Positions 13,947-21,344 are shown, counted from the first letter of the stretch. The stretch is 35,026 nucleotides of DNA from Chthonomonadaceae bacterium (GCA_025352825.1 JANXSG010000124.1:1-35026), one strand, 5' to 3'. A program made the numbers and translations. The notes: generated from the sequence alone by a model not told the origin.

Positions 13947-14097
13947 GCGCAAGAGAACGAGGATAATAATAGATTCTAGTATCTCTGTGTAGTTCTGCGT
14001 CTCAAATAACCTACGCTCACGAATAAATTTAGTTTCATAATCTCGGGCAGTCGCGGTGATAATCACTGTGGCGAGTGCCGTCGGGGGTATAATCAGC

Positions 14098-15513
14098 ATG
14101 GCGGGTGGAACAGTAGTCGGCCTGGACATAGGCTCCAGCATGATGAAAGTAGTAGAATTAAAACGGAGCGGATCCGGAGTCGAAATAACTGCTCTTGGCG
14201 TAGCTCCTACTCCACAGGAAGCTGTGGAGAACAGTATCATTCTCGATTCCCAGATGCTGGGCCAGGCCGTTAAAGCTCTCTTATCGCAGACCGGAGTTAC
14301 GGCCAAAAAATGTGTCAGTTCTGTCTCTGGTCAATCAGCAGTTGTTGTGCGAGTAATCGATGTCCCGCAAATGAGCGACGATGAACTGGCAAATGCTATC
14401 AAATGGGAAGTTGAGAGAGTTGTCCCTTTCCCTCTTAGCGATGTCATTCTGGATTATAAAGTTATCGACCGTCCGGAAGGATACGCCGAAGGCCAGAACG
14501 TTGATGTCGTATTTGCGGTGGCGCAGCAAGATCTGGTTGATCTGCATGTGCAGGCTCTCCAAGCAGCTGGGTTGTCGCCAGAAGCGATTGACGTCGAGCC
14601 ACTTGCAGTCAGCCGGGCACTGCTCGAACTTCAATCGAACGACACCCCGGGTTATACCGCAGTGATCATAAATATTGGTGCCAGCGTGACGGATATTGGC
14701 GTATTCCGGGACAAACTTCCCACCTTCCTTCGAACTCTTCCTCTCGCAGGAAATAACTTGACGCAGGCAGTGGCGGACTATCTCCAAGTTGATTTCTCCA
14801 CCGCTGAGAGATATAAGACTGAGTACGGTGAAGTAGTATTTGATCAAGTACCTCAAGCGGCAGAGCCGTTCGGAATTGATGGTGGTTTTGGTGGCGGATC
14901 TGCAGCGTTTATGGATTTCTCCCCGCCTCCTGCTGCTGCGGAACCAGTACCCGACCGCCCATCCGACTCCGGCAGAATGCCGTTTGATTTCTCCACTCCG
15001 GGTGAATCACACGCCGCTCCACTGCCTTTCGAGCCTACTGAACCAAATTCCGGTAGCCTCGAACAAGAATCTCCATTTGGAATGTCAGGGTCGCCGGAAG
15101 CGGCAGCTCTGCCCACACCTAATCTGCCGGCTGTCAGCGCCATAGAGCCGAACACTGATGCCATGAGAATGCAAGTCTTTTCTGCGATTGCCCCTGTGCT
15201 TGCTGAGCTTGTGCAAGAACTGCGCCGCTCCATTGATTACTATTGTGGTAAATCGGTGGATTCCCACATACATGAACTGCTGATTGTTGGCGGGACTGCC
15301 AGATTAAAAGGAATAGCACAATATCTGGAAGTCGAAGTTGGAATCCCGGCTCGTGTTGCGGATCCGCTTGCTAATATTCAAGTCACATCAAAAAACTTTT
15401 CCGGGCAGCATCTGCATGATATTTCTGCCATGTTTCCCATCAGCATCGGACTGGGTGCTCGTGATCTGATCGCTGGCCCCGTATCCACTGGGAAAAAATC
15501 GAAGCGTAAATAG
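14098..15513 (+). CDS. pilM: type IV pilus assembly ATPase-like protein PilM
   Basis: Actin-like cytoplasmic protein that binds the N-terminus of PilN and anchors the inner-membrane alignment complex. From the ATG at 14098 (GGGGG about ten bases upstream; an earlier in-frame ATG at 14056 is less likely) it is 471 residues. It begins with the FtsA/PilM phosphate loop VVGLDIGSS (residues 7-14). Other typical parts are VIDVPQMSDDELANAIKWEVERVVPFPLSD (a PilM hallmark), NIGASVTDIGVF and LLIVGGTARLKGI near the C-terminus. The usual length is about 350; the excess is a Pro/Gly/Ser-rich linker at about 251-354, inserted between the two halves of the second subdomain. It is the first gene of the pilus operon. 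Confidence 0.93.
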   Translation: MAGGTVVGLDIGSSMMKVVELKRSGSGVEITALGVAPTPQEAVENSIILDSQMLGQAVKALLSQTGVTAKKCVSSVSGQSAVVVRVIDVPQMSDDELANAIKWEVERVVPFPLSDVILDYKVIDRPEGYAEGQNVDVVFAVAQQDLVDLHVQALQAAGLSPEAIDVEPLAVSRALLELQSNDTPGYTAVIINIGASVTDIGVFRDKLPTFLRTLPLAGNNLTQAVADYLQVDFSTAERYKTEYGEVVFDQVPQAAEPFGIDGGFGGGSAAFMDFSPPPAAAEPVPDRPSDSGRMPFDFSTPGESHAAPLPFEPTEPNSGSLEQESPFGMSGSPEAAALPTPNLPAVSAIEPNTDAMRMQVFSAIAPVLAELVQELRRSIDYYCGKSVDSHIHELLIVGGTARLKGIAQYLEVEVGIPARVADPLANIQVTSKNFSGQHLHDISAMFPISIGLGARDLIAGPVSTGKKSKRK

Positions 15514-15592: not shown

Positions 15593-16651
15593 ATGCTTCG
15601 CATCAATCTATTACCACCTTATATAGCCGACGGCCAAAAGAAGAAAAAAGTAATTACTGGATGGACAGTTGGCGTTATCGCAGTTATTGCTTTGCTATTA
15701 TTTAGACTTGCATCAGCAAATGCCGATCTGGCTGCTGCAAAAGCACGCGAAGAGACTGCAAAGACAAATCAGACTGAATATCAGAACATTGATGGTCAGA
15801 TTAAAAAAGAGAACGACAAGGCAGCCAAGACTAAGGAAAAGCAAGATTTCATAGCAGACGCACAGAAATACAATAATGCGTGGCCGGCAATGCTGGAATC
15901 GGTACGGAACGTAACCAGCAACCAGATTTTGCTTAAGAGTTTAAATATCGATGCTGCCCAGCACAAAACAATCAATCTCTCTGGTTTCTCTCAGAACGAG
16001 ATGAACATTGTGCGTTGGTGGATGTATCTACGCAGCCATAAAGATAGATTTGAAACAATCTTTTTTAATCTTCCCCTACACGGATTTGCAGGTGGAACAG
16101 GAGTGGGTACAGGTCTAGCAGGCGGAGTAAGAGGTTTCTCTGGCGGCGGTCCTATGATGGGCGGTATGCCTGGTGGTTTTCAGGGTCAGATGCCTGGCAG
16201 CATGGGCGGAGGAGCTATGGGCAGAGCAGGCAGGATGCCAGGCGGAATGGGAATGAGCAGTACTGGCATGGGCGCTATGGGTATGGGTGGAGGTCGAGGA
16301 TTTGGCGGTGGCGGTGCTGCGGGTGATGTCGGTCAAGGCATTGTCGAAGGGAGGCAAGGCATCAATTTCACAGCAACGCTCGTACTCAAAGACCCGATGA
16401 ACGGCGGAGTTGCAGCCCCCGCATGGCCTCCGGTGGCTGCAGGCGGCGCTGCAGGTGGTGTAGGTATGGGTGGAATGATGGGTGGCATGCCTGGCGGAAT
16501 GATGGGCGGCATGCCTGGCGGAATGATGGGTGGCATGGGTGGAGCAGCAATGTCCAGTACACCTCCGCCAGCCGGCGCCGCTAAGACAGGCGCTGCTGGT
16601 GGCGGCCTCAATATTAAAGGGCGCAGTGGTAAAGACGCGGGAGACGAATAA
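15593..16651 (+). CDS. pilN: PilN-like pilus assembly protein with Gly/Met-rich insert and tail
   Basis: Inner-membrane component of the type IV pilus alignment complex. The N-terminal MLRINLLPPYIADGQKKKK contains the PilN 'INLLP' motif that docks on PilM. Then come one membrane helix (about 22-42), a charged coiled-coil (45-90) and the periplasmic ferredoxin-like domain (about 95-270). The latter is split by a Gly/Met-rich loop (164-248) between the strands ETIFFNLPLHGF and GINFTATLVLKDP. A second Gly/Met-rich tail (about 283-338) ends the protein. Ordinary PilN is about 180-200 residues, so low-complexity sequence accounts for most of the 352. AAGGAG lies nine bases before the ATG. It is followed by the PilO gene with only two bases between. 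Confidence 0.85.
   Translation: MLRINLLPPYIADGQKKKKVITGWTVGVIAVIALLLFRLASANADLAAAKAREETAKTNQTEYQNIDGQIKKENDKAAKTKEKQDFIADAQKYNNAWPAMLESVRNVTSNQILLKSLNIDAAQHKTINLSGFSQNEMNIVRWWMYLRSHKDRFETIFFNLPLHGFAGGTGVGTGLAGGVRGFSGGGPMMGGMPGGFQGQMPGSMGGGAMGRAGRMPGGMGMSSTGMGAMGMGGGRGFGGGGAAGDVGQGIVEGRQGINFTATLVLKDPMNGGVAAPAWPPVAAGGAAGGVGMGGMMGGMPGGMMGGMPGGMMGGMGGAAMSSTPPPAGAAKTGAAGGGLNIKGRSGKDAGDE
16472..16541 (+). repeat. 24-bp tandem repeat in the pilN tail
   Basis: About three units of 24 bp (16472-16495, 16496-16519, then a partial copy), each encoding GMMGGMPG-like octapeptides. The first two copies differ at one base. Slippage could change tail length between strains. Confidence 0.75.
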
Positions 16652-16653
16652 AG

Positions 16654-17553
16654 ATGAAAGCTACTTCACGCTTAACAGCGCTGCACATACATATTATCGG
16701 AGTAACAGCTACAATTATCTGCGCTGCAATCCTGTTTTTTCTGCTCATAAAGCCAAAAGTTGAGGACACAAAAACAGTTTTAGCAAGCGCTGATAGTATA
16801 GAAGGTTCTGGTGGAACTCCCGAAAAGGTAGCCGCGCACAAAAAAGATCTTGGTAAAGCCAAGGCTACCGCTGTTGAAACCAATGAGAAGTGGCTGGTAA
16901 ACGATAGAAAATATATGCCTGGACTCAATTTCAATGGTGATCTTCTTGACACTTATGAAAACAAACTTATAAAAATCCCTTCTCAGTGGGGACAATGGGT
17001 TGCCGCCTGGTATGATGGCCAAAGAAACCTCGGAGTCTCTCGCTTCCCTGGTGTCGAGTTTCCGATTGATGCTTTCCCTGCCGATCCAAACTCTATCAGT
17101 GAACTCAGCTCACTACGATTCCCACGATCGGGTTTCTGGAATGTCGGTGTGGAGGCAAAGAGTTTTGATCAGGCGATGGCACACCTCAAACGATTTAACA
17201 ATATGGAACGACACGGCATGCCAGTGATCGACAATATCTCCCTCTCCGGTCAAAGCCCAAACCTCTCTATGTCATATACTTTAGCCCTATACATTATTCC
17301 ATCCGCCGATCCGCCTGTTGCGGATCCAGTCATCAGTGCTCCCGCAGGTGGAGCCGCTGGAGGATTAGGCATGGGCCGGCGAGGTATGATGGGTGGTATG
17401 GGCGGCCCTGGTGGAATGATGGGTGGCGCCCCGATGATGGGCGGCGGACCCATGATGGGCGGACCTGGCGGAGCAGGTGGAATGATGCCACGTGGCGGCG
17501 CCGGCGCCGGAGCGCCCATGAGTGGAGCTGGCCGCCGAGGCAAAGAAGAATAA
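16654..17553 (+). CDS. pilO: PilO-like pilus assembly protein with Gly/Met-rich tail
   Basis: Partner of PilN in the inner-membrane alignment complex. 299 residues: short N-terminus, one membrane helix (about 13-32), a charged periplasmic helix (36-80), then an alpha/beta domain (about 95-215). Its pattern GVEAKSFDQAMAHLKRFNNMERHGMPVIDNISLSG...LSMSYTLALYI fits the PilO ferredoxin-like fold. Residues 231-299 form a tail of GMMGGMGG/PMMGGG-type repeats that ordinary PilO (about 200 residues) lacks. Assignment as PilO rests on gene order, topology and fold pattern more than on strict motifs. It starts two bases after the PilN stop. Confidence 0.75.
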   Translation: MKATSRLTALHIHIIGVTATIICAAILFFLLIKPKVEDTKTVLASADSIEGSGGTPEKVAAHKKDLGKAKATAVETNEKWLVNDRKYMPGLNFNGDLLDTYENKLIKIPSQWGQWVAAWYDGQRNLGVSRFPGVEFPIDAFPADPNSISELSSLRFPRSGFWNVGVEAKSFDQAMAHLKRFNNMERHGMPVIDNISLSGQSPNLSMSYTLALYIIPSADPPVADPVISAPAGGAAGGLGMGRRGMMGGMGGPGGMMGGAPMMGGGPMMGGPGGAGGMMPRGGAGAGAPMSGAGRRGKEE

Positions 17554-17598
17554 CTGTACGGAATAGATGTATTTTGATCGCATAAGAGGAATATTCAA

Positions 17599-18402
17599 TT
17601 GAAAATGAGAAATCCATATAGTTACCTATCTCTAGCCTTACTGGCTGCTATCCCGATTGGATGTAAGAAAAGTGACGACACTGCGGCAGACCCGAACGCA
17701 ACCACTCCCACACCTACGGCTGGAGCTAAAGTAGGAATGGGTGGTCCCGTAGGCGGCATGGCTGGCTCAGGCGGCGCACCAGCCGGGCCTGGTTCGAGGC
17801 GACCGGTGGGAGCACCTGGTTCTTCACCAATTCCAGGAGGCAAGCCCGCTAATGCAGTGGCGGCAGGCGGTATTGCAGGTCAGCCACCTGGCGCAAAAGT
17901 CGTCACGCAGCCTGGCATTAAGGTAGCGCCAGATCCTTTCTACGCTTCCTGGCATGTCACTCCTGTTCCCTATATTTTTGATGAAGTTCAGCCTATAAGA
18001 TTAGCCAGTGCGAACGTAACGATGCCTCCCAAAATAGACACTGAAGTTCGCGAAGTACCAACTAGAAGAGTTTCCGGTATAATGAGTGGAGATGGTATCT
18101 ATGCGATACTTGAAGGTGGAGCCGAAATCGAGATCGTAAAACCTGGAAGTATTACCCAAGATGGTTATCGGGTGGTCTCTATCAACTCTAATTCTGTAAA
18201 GCTTCAGCGCCGTGAAGGTAACTATCTGCTTACTCAAATCGTCCCATTAACAGATATACCGGCTTCAGCTCAGACAGCAGGTTTCCAGGGCGGCGGAGCC
18301 CGAGGTGGATTTCCCGGTGCGCGCGGTGGATTTCCCGGCGGTCAGGGCGGCTTTCCAGGTGGCGGGCAGTTTGGCGGCGGCGGGCGGCGTGGTGAAGAGT
18401 AG
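17599..18402 (+). CDS. PilP-like lipoprotein with Gly-rich segments
   Basis: 267 residues in the position PilP occupies in pilMNOPQ operons. A signal peptide ends in a lipobox-like PIGC (Cys22), suggesting a lipoprotein. Residues 23-105 are Gly/Pro/Ala-rich and disordered in look. A compact beta domain follows (about 155-222, VSGIMSGDGIYAILEGG...YRVVSINSNSVKL), which matches the C-terminal beta-sandwich of PilP that contacts the secretin. The protein ends in GGFPG-type repeats (229-262). Start: TTG at 17599 with AGAGGA eight bases upstream, preferred over the ATG two codons later. PilP identity is inferred from order, lipobox and the beta domain. Confidence 0.7.
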   Translation: MKMRNPYSYLSLALLAAIPIGCKKSDDTAADPNATTPTPTAGAKVGMGGPVGGMAGSGGAPAGPGSRRPVGAPGSSPIPGGKPANAVAAGGIAGQPPGAKVVTQPGIKVAPDPFYASWHVTPVPYIFDEVQPIRLASANVTMPPKIDTEVREVPTRRVSGIMSGDGIYAILEGGAEIEIVKPGSITQDGYRVVSINSNSVKLQRREGNYLLTQIVPLTDIPASAQTAGFQGGGARGGFPGARGGFPGGQGGFPGGGQFGGGGRRGEE

Positions 18403-18490
18403 TTATCCCGCTCTGATATTACTTTGAAGTCTGACCTGAACACAGGTTATCGAAAACACAGTTTGCGATTTTCTCGAGGAGGAAACAACC

Positions 18491-19228
18491 ATGTTCTTAC
18501 GATCCTATAAAATTGGGCTGGGCGTACTGGCATTAACCACGATTAGTTTTGTGGCGATGCCTGTTTTTGCGAAAGCTCAGGATGCTGGTACAGATACTAC
18601 CGACAGCACGGCCACATCCGCAATCCCGAACAAAAAAGTCAGTCTTACTGTAGAGAGCGCTGACCTATTCTATGCTCTCAAGCTGCTATTTGCACAGATA
18701 AACGCGCAGTATGTTCTTGATAGCTCTCTCCGAGGGCAATTGGTTACTGTTACTCTCAAAGACCAACCGTTCAGAATCGCTCTGGAGACTCTTCTCAAGT
18801 CCGCAAACCTTCCGCTGACCTATACTTTCGAGAATAACATCTATAGTATTATTCCTAAAGTGGAAGATACAGTTGTACCGCCTGACCAAAATGCAACTCC
18901 AGACCAACTTACACAGACGAGTGGGCCTCCCATCAAAATCTACAAGGGCAGCGATCTTCCCTTCCTGAGTGCACTCAATATCGTTGAGCTCCTCGGTGGA
19001 CGGCAGATTCGTGCTATGGGCTCGATGGTCGGCTTCGGTGGCGGCGGTATGGGTGGTGGCGGTGGCATGGGCGGCGGACAGGGCGGACGTGGCGGTCAGG
19101 GTGGCGGTGGCGGCTTTGGCGGCGGTGGTGGTGGCGGTTTTGGCGGCGGCCAGGGTGGTGGTGGAGGCATTGGCGGCGGCGGTGGTGGATATAGCGGCGG
19201 CGGTGGTGGTGGTGGACGCGGCTTCTAG
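18491..19228 (+). CDS. short secretin N-domain (STN-like) protein with poly-Gly tail
   Basis: 245-residue exported protein. Signal peptide 1-28 (VFAKAQ end). Residues about 48-125 (VSLTVESADLFYALKLLFAQINAQYVLDSSL...VTVTLKDQPFRIALETLLKSANLPL) match the STN/N0 domain found at the N-terminus of secretins and TonB-dependent receptors. A second short segment (148-177, IKIYKGSDLPFLSALNIVELLGGRQI) looks like the beginning of another N-domain. There is no secretin channel; the protein ends in a nearly pure glycine tail (about 181-243, GGGG, GGQGG). It may line or extend the periplasmic vestibule of the PilQ encoded next. GAGGAGG lies six bases before the ATG. Confidence 0.75.
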   Translation: MFLRSYKIGLGVLALTTISFVAMPVFAKAQDAGTDTTDSTATSAIPNKKVSLTVESADLFYALKLLFAQINAQYVLDSSLRGQLVTVTLKDQPFRIALETLLKSANLPLTYTFENNIYSIIPKVEDTVVPPDQNATPDQLTQTSGPPIKIYKGSDLPFLSALNIVELLGGRQIRAMGSMVGFGGGGMGGGGGMGGGQGGRGGQGGGGGFGGGGGGGFGGGQGGGGGIGGGGGGYSGGGGGGGRGF

Positions 19229-19250
19229 TACGCCATACTATATTTACAAT

Positions 19251-19274
19251 GAGGCGCAATAAATTTTGCGCCTC
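19251..19274 (+). terminator. stem-loop between short secretin-domain gene and pilQ
   Basis: Perfect 9-bp stem GAGGCGCAA/TTGCGCCTC with a 6-nt loop. It lies 22 bp after the stop at 19228, within the 196-bp gap before pilQ. The following sequence has only a weak T-content, so it may attenuate rather than stop transcription into pilQ. Confidence 0.5.
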
Positions 19275-19424
19275 TTGAAATGAAGTTTATTATCTAGCCG
19301 TGCAGGTTGTATGAGATTTGGATTATAGTTAAGTATTACAAAATCGCTGAGCCATTTAGGCGGCGATTAACATGCATATTTAAACGCGGCTCCGTTAACA
19401 GAGACGCAGAGGGGGACATCGGAT

Positions 19425-21344
19425 ATGGTCTTGAAGAGGCAGTTTAGGCGCGCACCCGGTTTTCTGGTCGCTGCATCACTCACCGCATCCTTAGTGGGCG
19501 GGATAGGACTCAGAGCCAGTGCGAATGATGATTCAACGCTTGGCTTGGAGACCAGTGGCCCGCTCAGCGTACTGGTGGATGTTGACCTTACAAATTCAAC
19601 GCTTGCAAAAGCGATCAGAATTATTACAACGACTACGCATCTCAGTAACATAGTCATCAAAGACCCAGGTTATAACTACGACCCTATTACCCTCTCTTTG
19701 AAAAGAATGCCCACCAGAGATGTGCTGCGGCTTATCTGCGAGTCTGCCGGCGCTGACCTATGGCAAAAAGATGGAGTGTACTGGATTGGGCCGAAAGGCA
19801 GCGCTCCAAAAGTTGAGCCAGAAAAACCTCTTCTACCAGACTTTACAGAAGTACCTACTCTCCCGATCCATAGCTACGAGAAAATCAAACTTATCTACAC
19901 CGATCCTGGTGCTATGCTTGGGATGCTCGGGGTACACGATGGAGTACGCACCGACTTCATGTCGATCTTCAAAGAAAATGTGATGCGTTCGATGCTCTAT
20001 CCTAGAACAAGTTCCTATCACATAAACCAGAACTCCACTCCAGTTATGCAAAATGGTCTTTCGACCTATCAGCCGCAACCAAATGTGGTTGCTCCGGCGG
20101 TACCTATAGGTGATTCACAGTCAAACAATCAGCGCGCACCTCAGGCTGGACAAGGTTCTTCCCAAAGCAGCAACTTCATTCAGGACACTCTGAAAAGCAA
20201 TTCCCAGGAAGCCCACCGTGATGATAATGAGTTTCTGGAAGAGTTTGGCAGAGGCGGCCAGTTTGGTGGTGGCTTCGGTGGTGGCGGCGGCATCGGCGGC
20301 GGCCAGGGCGGATTTGGCGGTGGCGGTGGCGGAATCGGTGGCGGCCAGGGCGGATTTGGCGGCGGCGGCCAGGGTGGACTAGGCGGTGGCGGTCAGGGAG
20401 GCCAGGGTGGTGGAGCAGGCAGCGCAGCAGGCCTTCTCCCGGATGGTGTCAACCCCGGCAATATATCAGCTTTCGATGCAGATAACTCCATTATTGTTCG
20501 AGGCTTGAATGGCGAACAGATACGTGAACTTAAAAAAGTGATTGAAATGCTGGATGTGAAACCCAGACAACTTATGATTAAATCTGAGTTTGTTACTGTT
20601 TCGCAGAACGATGTAAACTCCTTTGGTATTACCTGGAACTTCCAAAAAGTCAATCTAATTGGCGCTGCGAACCTCGGATTCGAAACCACCAATACTAGCT
20701 TTCTGCAGTATGCTGCTGGTAACGTTCAAACTCAGCTTAGCTGGATTCTTACCAATGGTAGAGGTAAACTTGTATCTGCTCCTACCGCCACAACAATAAA
20801 TAATGTGCCAGTTCAGTTCTTTACGTCAACAGAAATACCTTTCTATACGACTTCTCCTTTTGTAACATCAACTGGTCAGGTATTTCTCACAACTAACGTG
20901 TCCACCACGAACTCGATCACAAGCATTAGCGTGTGGCCAAGAATTAATGGGGATGATTCGATCACGCTATTCGGGAGCGTAAACTTCTCGGATGCAAGCG
21001 GATTTATCACCGGACCGAACGGGAGTTCCTTCCCAATAATCGTAACACAATCTGCGCCAATTCAAAGAATTATTCGCAATGGTGACACGATGGTTATTGG
21101 TGGTATTGTTCATAAATCGGATAGCACCAGTACGAATAAAGTTCCGTTATTAGGCGATCTGCCTCTTATTGGAAATCTGTTCAGATCACGTAAAAACACT
21201 ACAGACGATTCCGATCTCATTGTGTTTATTACTCCGACGATACTTCCTGAACGACAGTCGATTATACCTGTGAGTGGAATCGGTGGTGGATTTGGCAGCG
21301 GACTTTCTGGCCCCGGTACTTCCGGCGGCGGTACCACTCCTTAG
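19425..21344 (+). CDS. pilQ: type IV pilus secretin PilQ
   Basis: Outer-membrane channel through which the pilus is extruded (and DNA taken up in competent cells). 639 residues: signal peptide about 1-33; STN/N0-like domain 47-125 (VDVDLTNSTLAKAIRIIT...VYWIGPKG); a Gln/Asn/Ser-rich linker to 270; a Gly-rich block 275-333; a secretin N-domain 347-395 (AFDADNSIIVRGLNGEQIRELKKVIEMLDV). The secretin channel covers about 396-605 and includes the hallmark VPLLGDLPLIGNLF (573-586) and DLIVFITPTIL. A short Gly-rich tail ends the protein. A Gly-rich block inside the periplasmic region is unusual. GGGGGA precedes the ATG by eight bases. Last gene of the operon; no pilB, pilC or pilT lies in this window. 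Confidence 0.92.
   Translation: MVLKRQFRRAPGFLVAASLTASLVGGIGLRASANDDSTLGLETSGPLSVLVDVDLTNSTLAKAIRIITTTTHLSNIVIKDPGYNYDPITLSLKRMPTRDVLRLICESAGADLWQKDGVYWIGPKGSAPKVEPEKPLLPDFTEVPTLPIHSYEKIKLIYTDPGAMLGMLGVHDGVRTDFMSIFKENVMRSMLYPRTSSYHINQNSTPVMQNGLSTYQPQPNVVAPAVPIGDSQSNNQRAPQAGQGSSQSSNFIQDTLKSNSQEAHRDDNEFLEEFGRGGQFGGGFGGGGGIGGGQGGFGGGGGGIGGGQGGFGGGGQGGLGGGGQGGQGGGAGSAAGLLPDGVNPGNISAFDADNSIIVRGLNGEQIRELKKVIEMLDVKPRQLMIKSEFVTVSQNDVNSFGITWNFQKVNLIGAANLGFETTNTSFLQYAAGNVQTQLSWILTNGRGKLVSAPTATTINNVPVQFFTSTEIPFYTTSPFVTSTGQVFLTTNVSTTNSITSISVWPRINGDDSITLFGSVNFSDASGFITGPNGSSFPIIVTQSAPIQRIIRNGDTMVIGGIVHKSDSTSTNKVPLLGDLPLIGNLFRSRKNTTDDSDLIVFITPTILPERQSIIPVSGIGGGFGSGLSGPGTSGGGTTP

Follow-up and report, generated by a model that had tools for sequence, protein, structure and literature searches.

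Five successive type IV pilus assembly proteins, namely PilN, PilO, a PilP-like lipoprotein, a short secretin-N0 (STN) protein, and PilQ, carry long Gly-rich segments in the 35,026-nt stretch of DNA analyzed here (the window; GCA_025352825.1 JANXSG010000124.1:1-35026), which has a G+C content of 48% and comes from a genome of Armatimonadota whose nearest named relatives are the Chthonomonadaceae. The segments form two modules, PilN/PilO/PilP and STN/PilQ, rather than one sheath. Their presence at the same places across the phylum and their absence from outgroups support the reading that we tentatively favor, at slightly less than even confidence, in which the segments are a selected, disordered, and weakly sticky coupling that bridges and centers the platform and the secretin.

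All five reported open reading frames (ORFs) are present at positions 15593-21344. A segment was called wherever Gly made up 40% or more of a 30-residue window, an arbitrary threshold that was applied in the same form throughout, and the segments obtained by this fixed rule cover those claimed on the five proteins by the original prediction. They are 34-106 residues long and contain 37-64% Gly, as compared with 8.0% in nine neighboring proteins. We infer a periplasmic placement from the predicted signal peptides, lipobox, and N-terminal membrane helices. The proposed Gly/Met flavor holds for PilN and PilO, whose segments contain 11-22% Met in MMGG repeats, and fails for STN and PilQ, whose segments are of the Gly/Phe/Gln type with 0-5% Met; the PilQ block of the window contains no Met.

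Among complete genes of Armatimonadota, a Gly segment is present in 39/50 PilN, 33/47 PilO, 29/42 PilP, 30/30 STN, and 27/32 PilQ, whereas the outgroup clusters have none (0/23 PilN, 0/22 PilO, 0/14 PilP, and 0/14 PilQ), in agreement with the claim that standard homologues lack such segments. The outgroups comprise Deltaproteobacteria, Nitrospirota, Myxococcales, Deinococcales, and one Bacillota. Cyanobacteriota and Chloroflexota are not among them, and coverage of these two phyla, of Eremiobacterota, and of Fimbriimonadia by the scan was uncertain. The median protein lengths in Armatimonadota and outgroups are 300 and 192 residues for PilN, 286 and 208 for PilO, and 268 and 184 for PilP, respectively. 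The 28 complete five-gene clusters of the phylum include 16 with all five segments, as expected if the extensions co-occur in orthologues, 5 with a segment in STN only, and 7 mixed ones. All STN-only clusters belong to one seven-row clade of the PilM tree. Since presence and absence on this tree provide only 3-4 independent pairs for co-gain, too few for a test, independent parallel gain is not demonstrated. In clusters without Gly segments, PilN and several or many PilO and PilP retain extensions in which Pro, Ala, Thr, or Gln abound instead; glycine is therefore the more variable property of these extensions, and disorder the more constant one. High G+C content was rejected as the cause: all five segments are present in the window at 48%, whereas the outgroups lack them at 55-70%, and the G+C content of the STN-only clade is 50-59%. 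A complete PilQ with no detected separate STN gene, which may be lost, fused, or missed, was observed at loci L193, L205, L209, and L210.

Codon comparisons indicate that the segments are maintained as protein sequence under purifying selection. In pairs of close relatives, 29-53% of third codon positions within the Gly segments have changed, but only ~1-12% of first and second positions have, so that the amino-acid content is conserved; the constraint is similar to, or somewhat looser than, that on the folded cores. The Gly codons of the window are mixed (104 GGC, 76 GGT, 42 GGA, and 4 GGG). Tandem repeats are present in the DNA, and pure slippage is ruled out by the codon-position test together with the diversity of Gly codons. 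The protein ends have signatures of their own, as STN ends with Phe, Trp, or Tyr in 22/30 cases, and PilN with Glu or Asp in 19/39.

With Gly left aside, the tails of PilN, PilO, and PilP resemble one another in composition more closely within a genome than between genomes. For the PilN-PilO pair, the cosine is 0.92 within and 0.81 between genomes, a value reached in 0/2000 shuffles, and the Met fractions of the two tails correlate (r=0.71). The longest peptide shared by PilN and PilO has a mean length of 8.4 residues within genomes versus 5.6 between them (p <= 0.001), and sharing exceeds that of block-shuffled tails in 14/31 genomes, although this shuffle test may be somewhat inflated by the residual periodicity of the repeats. 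Examples of such peptides differ in their DNA. At locus L168, PilN and PilO share an identical 21-residue peptide, GMGGMGMGMMGGPPGMMGGPP, with 11/21 identical codons, and at L238, PilN and PilP share the 11-residue GGGPGSGRGKG with 3/11 identical codons; the diverged codons imply that identity was retained at the protein level through synonymous change. At L170, the peptide shared by PilN and PilO, GGMPGPGGFSGAPGG, is encoded by 15/15 identical codons and is a recent, gene-conversion-like DNA copy between the neighboring pilN and pilO genes. The shared peptides differ by clade, and thus the matching of tails seems to have arisen repeatedly. By this matching, the tails of PilN, PilO, and PilP co-evolve, which is what contacting partners would be expected to do. 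PilN tails show no excess similarity to, or peptide sharing with, those of STN or PilQ, the PilN-STN make-up included. A single sheath that links the inner-membrane complex with the secretin, as originally proposed, is therefore not indicated, and this model was rejected. The broader idea of a shared role in interacting partners stands as far as co-occurrence, selection, and PilN/PilO/PilP co-evolution are concerned, and falls with respect to the single sheath and to pilus specificity.

The frequency of Gly segments elsewhere was estimated from an unbiased ~1.1 Mb sample of the genome, in which ORFs were called mechanically and exported-like ones were labeled by a hydrophobicity rule; motif scans covered the whole genome. 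Segments were found in 8/879 ORFs and in 2/185 exported-like ORFs of the sample, versus 5/5 pilus proteins (Fisher p = 1e-8), and in 0/46 exported-like neighbors of the clusters of relatives. Thus, the counter-explanation named by the original prediction, a general habit by which other exported proteins bear the tails equally often, does not hold, and it was ruled out as a full account. Single proteins with a Gly segment include a PQQ-propeller protein, an RND adaptor, a TPM-like protein, a ribosomal protein S3-like protein, DnaJ, and an RNA-binding protein. The S3-like protein (L098, 4282-5256; 324 aa), named by reading of its sequence, has a Gly/Arg-rich C-terminal tail of ~95 residues.

The trait is, however, not pilus-specific, because a type II secretion system of the same genome has it as well. 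The complete type II secretion-like cluster (L111, contig C189, 4650-18730) has Gly-rich inserts in GspK, in a fused, PilM/PilN-like GspL, in a GspC-like protein, and in GspD, and several relatives have Gly-rich segments in GspK or GspD. These inserts are weaker than those of the pilus proteins and mostly confined to Chthonomonadaceae, and the PilO/GspM-like protein of the type II system is free of a Gly segment, unlike PilO. The Gly trait belongs to secretin-linked machines, beyond pili alone. Among the 23 dense Gly repeats found by the whole-genome motif scan, 9 are in the window, 7 in one stretch of contig C34, and 2 on C189.

Structure prediction was based on models built from 27-28 sequences. 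In the AlphaFold2 model of the STN protein, the predicted local distance difference test score exceeds 90 across most of the N0 fold and is below 50 over residues 169-242; among PDB structures, it matches the N0 domain of meningococcal PilQ best (4ar0, E=8.7e-5). The short STN protein is accordingly modeled as an extra, stand-alone N0 domain with a disordered Gly-rich tail. Its orthologs often terminate in RGGF, RGSF, or YRRW (19217-19228 in the window, and other STN genes), an aromatic end that may resemble an outer-membrane assembly signal, whereas the PilN, PilO, and PilP tails mostly end with charged or polar residues. In the PilQ model, residues 48-123 form the N0 domain, and the N1 domain is split by a loop that is predicted to be disordered (192-334) and includes most of the Gly block. 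AMIN domains were detected in none of the 28 Armatimonadota PilQ proteins and in 4/5 outgroup ones, with 2-3 stretches in each of four PilQ from Deltaproteobacteria and Nitrospirota.

Under the coupling model, the matching Gly/Met/Pro tails around the PilN/PilO/PilP ring would probably come together through weak, many-point mutual contacts, and the STN tail (Gly with Phe, Met, and Tyr) together with the Gly loop in PilQ N1 would form a second brush beneath the secretin gate. Both brushes would fill the periplasmic gap and hold the platform and the secretin coaxial with no need for rigid contacts. Such a coupling would be compliant, leaving the platform free to move during pilus extension and retraction; it would thus behave like the Gly/Pro-rich PilW linker of Thermus, although distributed among five proteins, and it may take the place of the AMIN domains, which bind peptidoglycan and which PilQ lacks here. 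We infer these periplasmic contacts, the compliance, and the AMIN replacement. The combination of Gly with Met, Phe, and Tyr is suggestive of phase-separating sticker-spacer proteins. A stronger version, in which the pilus machine of the phylum is held in the periplasm by mutually recognizing Gly-rich disordered tails whose matching sequences were copied between neighboring genes and then selected, so that a soft coupling akin to a condensate would replace an alignment that is rigid or anchored in the wall, is somewhat unlikely.

Several observations weigh against the coupling model. The seven-row clade keeps the cluster while the complete PilN, PilO, PilP, and PilQ genes lack Gly segments, and Gly is therefore dispensable in some lineages. 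Gly segments also occur in the type II system and in the few unrelated exported and cytosolic proteins listed above. A slight excess of peptide sharing was found for PilO-PilQ, PilP-PilQ, and PilP-STN, so that the split into two modules is strong but not absolute. Finally, the N-terminal linker of PilP is the sole true linker, most of the segments being loops or free C-terminal ends instead of inter-domain tethers; this makes simple tethering less likely than a brush-like or mutually adhesive behavior.

One alternative is tolerated low-complexity growth, in which exposed ends and loops of envelope machines gain Gly repeats through slippage and copying between adjacent genes, with little function. 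The tandem DNA repeats, the recent 15-codon copy between pilN and pilO, the wide variation in length and motif, the spread to type II and other proteins, and the lineages without Gly in four of the five proteins all fit such growth. We nevertheless consider it unlikely, given the strong excess of synonymous over non-synonymous change in the segments, the invariable Gly-richness of STN tails, the rarity of affected exported-like proteins, and the conserved STN and PilN ends. It is quite unlikely that the segments (STN tail, PilQ loop, and PilN/PilO/PilP tails) chiefly replace AMIN as a Gly brush that passes through the cell wall or binds to it, thereby placing the machine. AMIN domains are peptidoglycan binders that determine where PilQ is located in Myxococcus (PMC10653833), which makes the difference between Armatimonadota and the Deltaproteobacteria and Nitrospirota pertinent, but PilQ proteins without AMIN occur in Synechocystis, Moraxella, and Burkholderia (PMC10653833), the Deinococcales PilQ (L239) lacks both AMIN and Gly segments, and the tails contain no known wall-binding motif.

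The STN tail might serve mainly for targeting, its C-terminal Phe or Trp being read as an outer-membrane assembly signal that attaches the extra N0 ring to the secretin or to the outer-membrane assembly machinery, with the other tails secondary. This proposal would explain why STN has aromatic ends, in contrast to PilN, PilO, and PilP with their mostly charged or polar ones, and why STN is the only component that is Gly-rich in every genome; as the tail is predicted to be disordered rather than a barrel, and several lineages end in Arg or Gly, we regard it as very unlikely. Binding of copper(I) or scavenging of periplasmic oxidants by Met-rich tails is extremely improbable: the MMGG repeats and the correlated Met fractions of PilN and PilO would suit it, but many relatives have Pro, Ala, or charged residues in place of Met, the PilQ block of the window lacks it altogether, and no copper genes were noticed adjoining the cluster.

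The closest parallel among known systems is PilW of Thermus thermophilus, encoded in the order pilMNOWQ, a Gly/Pro-rich protein that spans a variable gap and was proposed to be a flexible link between PilQ and PilN-PilO; its truncation by 54 residues drew the platform ~7 nm toward PilQ (PMC13039148). With 292 residues, PilW is ~60% longer than a standard PilP, and its gene sits where pilP would be expected, after pilO and before pilQ. High Gly and Pro contents are common to both systems, and the N-terminal linker of the window PilP fits PilW by composition. Unlike in Thermus, where one protein is concerned, the trait described here affects PilN, PilO, PilP, PilQ, and an additional N0 protein, mostly as free tails and loops, and the examined Deinococcales cluster (L239) has no Gly-rich segment by the same rule. 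The standard PilMNOP-PilQ machines of Pseudomonas and Myxococcus share the pilMNOPQ order and the folded cores, but lack both the Gly segments and the separate N0 protein, and four PilQ checked from Deltaproteobacteria and Nitrospirota carry AMIN. In Pseudomonas PilO, conserved residues within unstructured regions are important for piliation and twitching, probably via contacts with PilN and PilP (PMC5805733); those regions are short ordinary loops, unlike the long Gly-rich tails considered here.

An open question is how the platform and the secretin of type IV pili stay in register as the pilus moves; cryo-tomography of Thermus (2026) offered a Gly/Pro-rich flexible linker as an answer (PMC13039148). 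Armatimonadota are a little-studied phylum with such sequence, under selection, on nearly every periplasmic pilus component, and its ~50 natural variants, including the Gly-less lineages, provide a direct test series for soft coupling. The matching tails of neighboring genes are a case of co-evolving disordered regions in an envelope machine, and a flexible platform-to-gate coupling would add a novel design to a familiar machine. No earlier report of these segments was found in the open-access papers searched, which miss most subscription journals.

The genes follow the order pilM-pilN-pilO-pilP-stn-pilQ and then aroC, aroK, and aroB (Table 1); the same aro flank was found in several clusters of Deltaproteobacteria and Nitrospirota. 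The cluster thus unites homologues of PilM, PilN, PilO, PilP, and PilQ, the set of a type IVa pilus machine. PilM (Pfam PilM_2, E=7e-54; TIGR01175 of NCBIfam, E=2e-70) and PilQ (Pfam Secretin, E=1e-33) were identified directly, whereas PilN, PilO, and PilP alone are below the Pfam thresholds, being too diverged for a direct match. When the window proteins were used to seed profiles, outgroup PilN, PilO, and PilP were recovered, and the members from L220 match the corresponding Pfam families. The tentative assignment of the PilP-like protein to the PilP/GspC family combines a fitting lipobox and operon place with an iterated profile that reaches Pfam PilP, with no direct Pfam match. A search of the window against Rfam gave no match.

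Table 1. Genes of the pilus assembly cluster and their Gly-rich segments (positions in the window).
Feature	Position	Strand	Basis or remark
pilM, cytoplasmic partner	14101..15513	+	likely start ATG 14101; listed ORF (485 aa) starts at 14056
pilN, 352 aa, one N-terminal membrane helix	15593..16651	+	place after pilM, INLLP start, seeded profile
PilN Gly/Met-rich loop insert, residues 157-262, ahead of predicted last strand, GINFTATLVLKDP	16061..16378	+	
PilN Gly/Met-rich C-terminal tail, residues 276-326, charged cap to 352	16418..16570	+	
pilO, 299 aa, one N-terminal membrane helix	16654..17553	+	seeded profile reaches outgroup PilO, Pfam PilO E=1e-38
PilO Gly/Met/Pro-rich C-terminal tail, residues 224-299	17323..17550	+	
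pilP-like lipoprotein, 267 aa, lipobox LAAIPIGC	17599..18402	+	operon position; seeded profile reaches L220 PilP, Pfam PilP E=5e-10
PilP Gly/Pro-rich linker between lipid anchor and folded core, residues 42-75	17722..17823	+	
PilP Gly/Phe-rich C-terminal tail, residues 221-267	18259..18399	+	
Stand-alone secretin-N0 (STN) protein, 245 aa: signal peptide, N0 45-123, linker, Gly tail ending ...GGRGF	18491..19228	+	Pfam STN E=7e-5
STN Gly-rich tail, residues 162-245, 64% Gly	18974..19225	+	
pilQ secretin, 639 aa: N0 48-123, split N1, secretin domain, without AMIN	19425..21344	+	
PilQ Gly-rich block, residues 262-350, mostly within disordered N1 loop 192-334	20208..20474	+	

Elsewhere in the same genome, pilB-like, pilT, and pilC genes are located together on contig C129, and supply the machine with its extension and retraction ATPases and its platform protein. 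PilT-family ATPases above the curated cut-off are encoded at five loci (contigs C129, C183, and C117), three of them consecutive on C183. Fimbriimonas, which belongs to a different class of Armatimonadota, has fimbriae (PMC4072686). PilM contains a low-complexity insert rich in Pro, Ser, and Asp at approximately residues 270-360 of the 485-aa ORF, with DFS and GRMPFDFS motifs conserved in the alignment consensus. This cytoplasmic insert accounts for the greater length of PilM in most Armatimonadota relatives (425-527 aa) as compared with most outgroups (~354 aa); it lies outside the Gly family, and its motifs are possibly a docking site.

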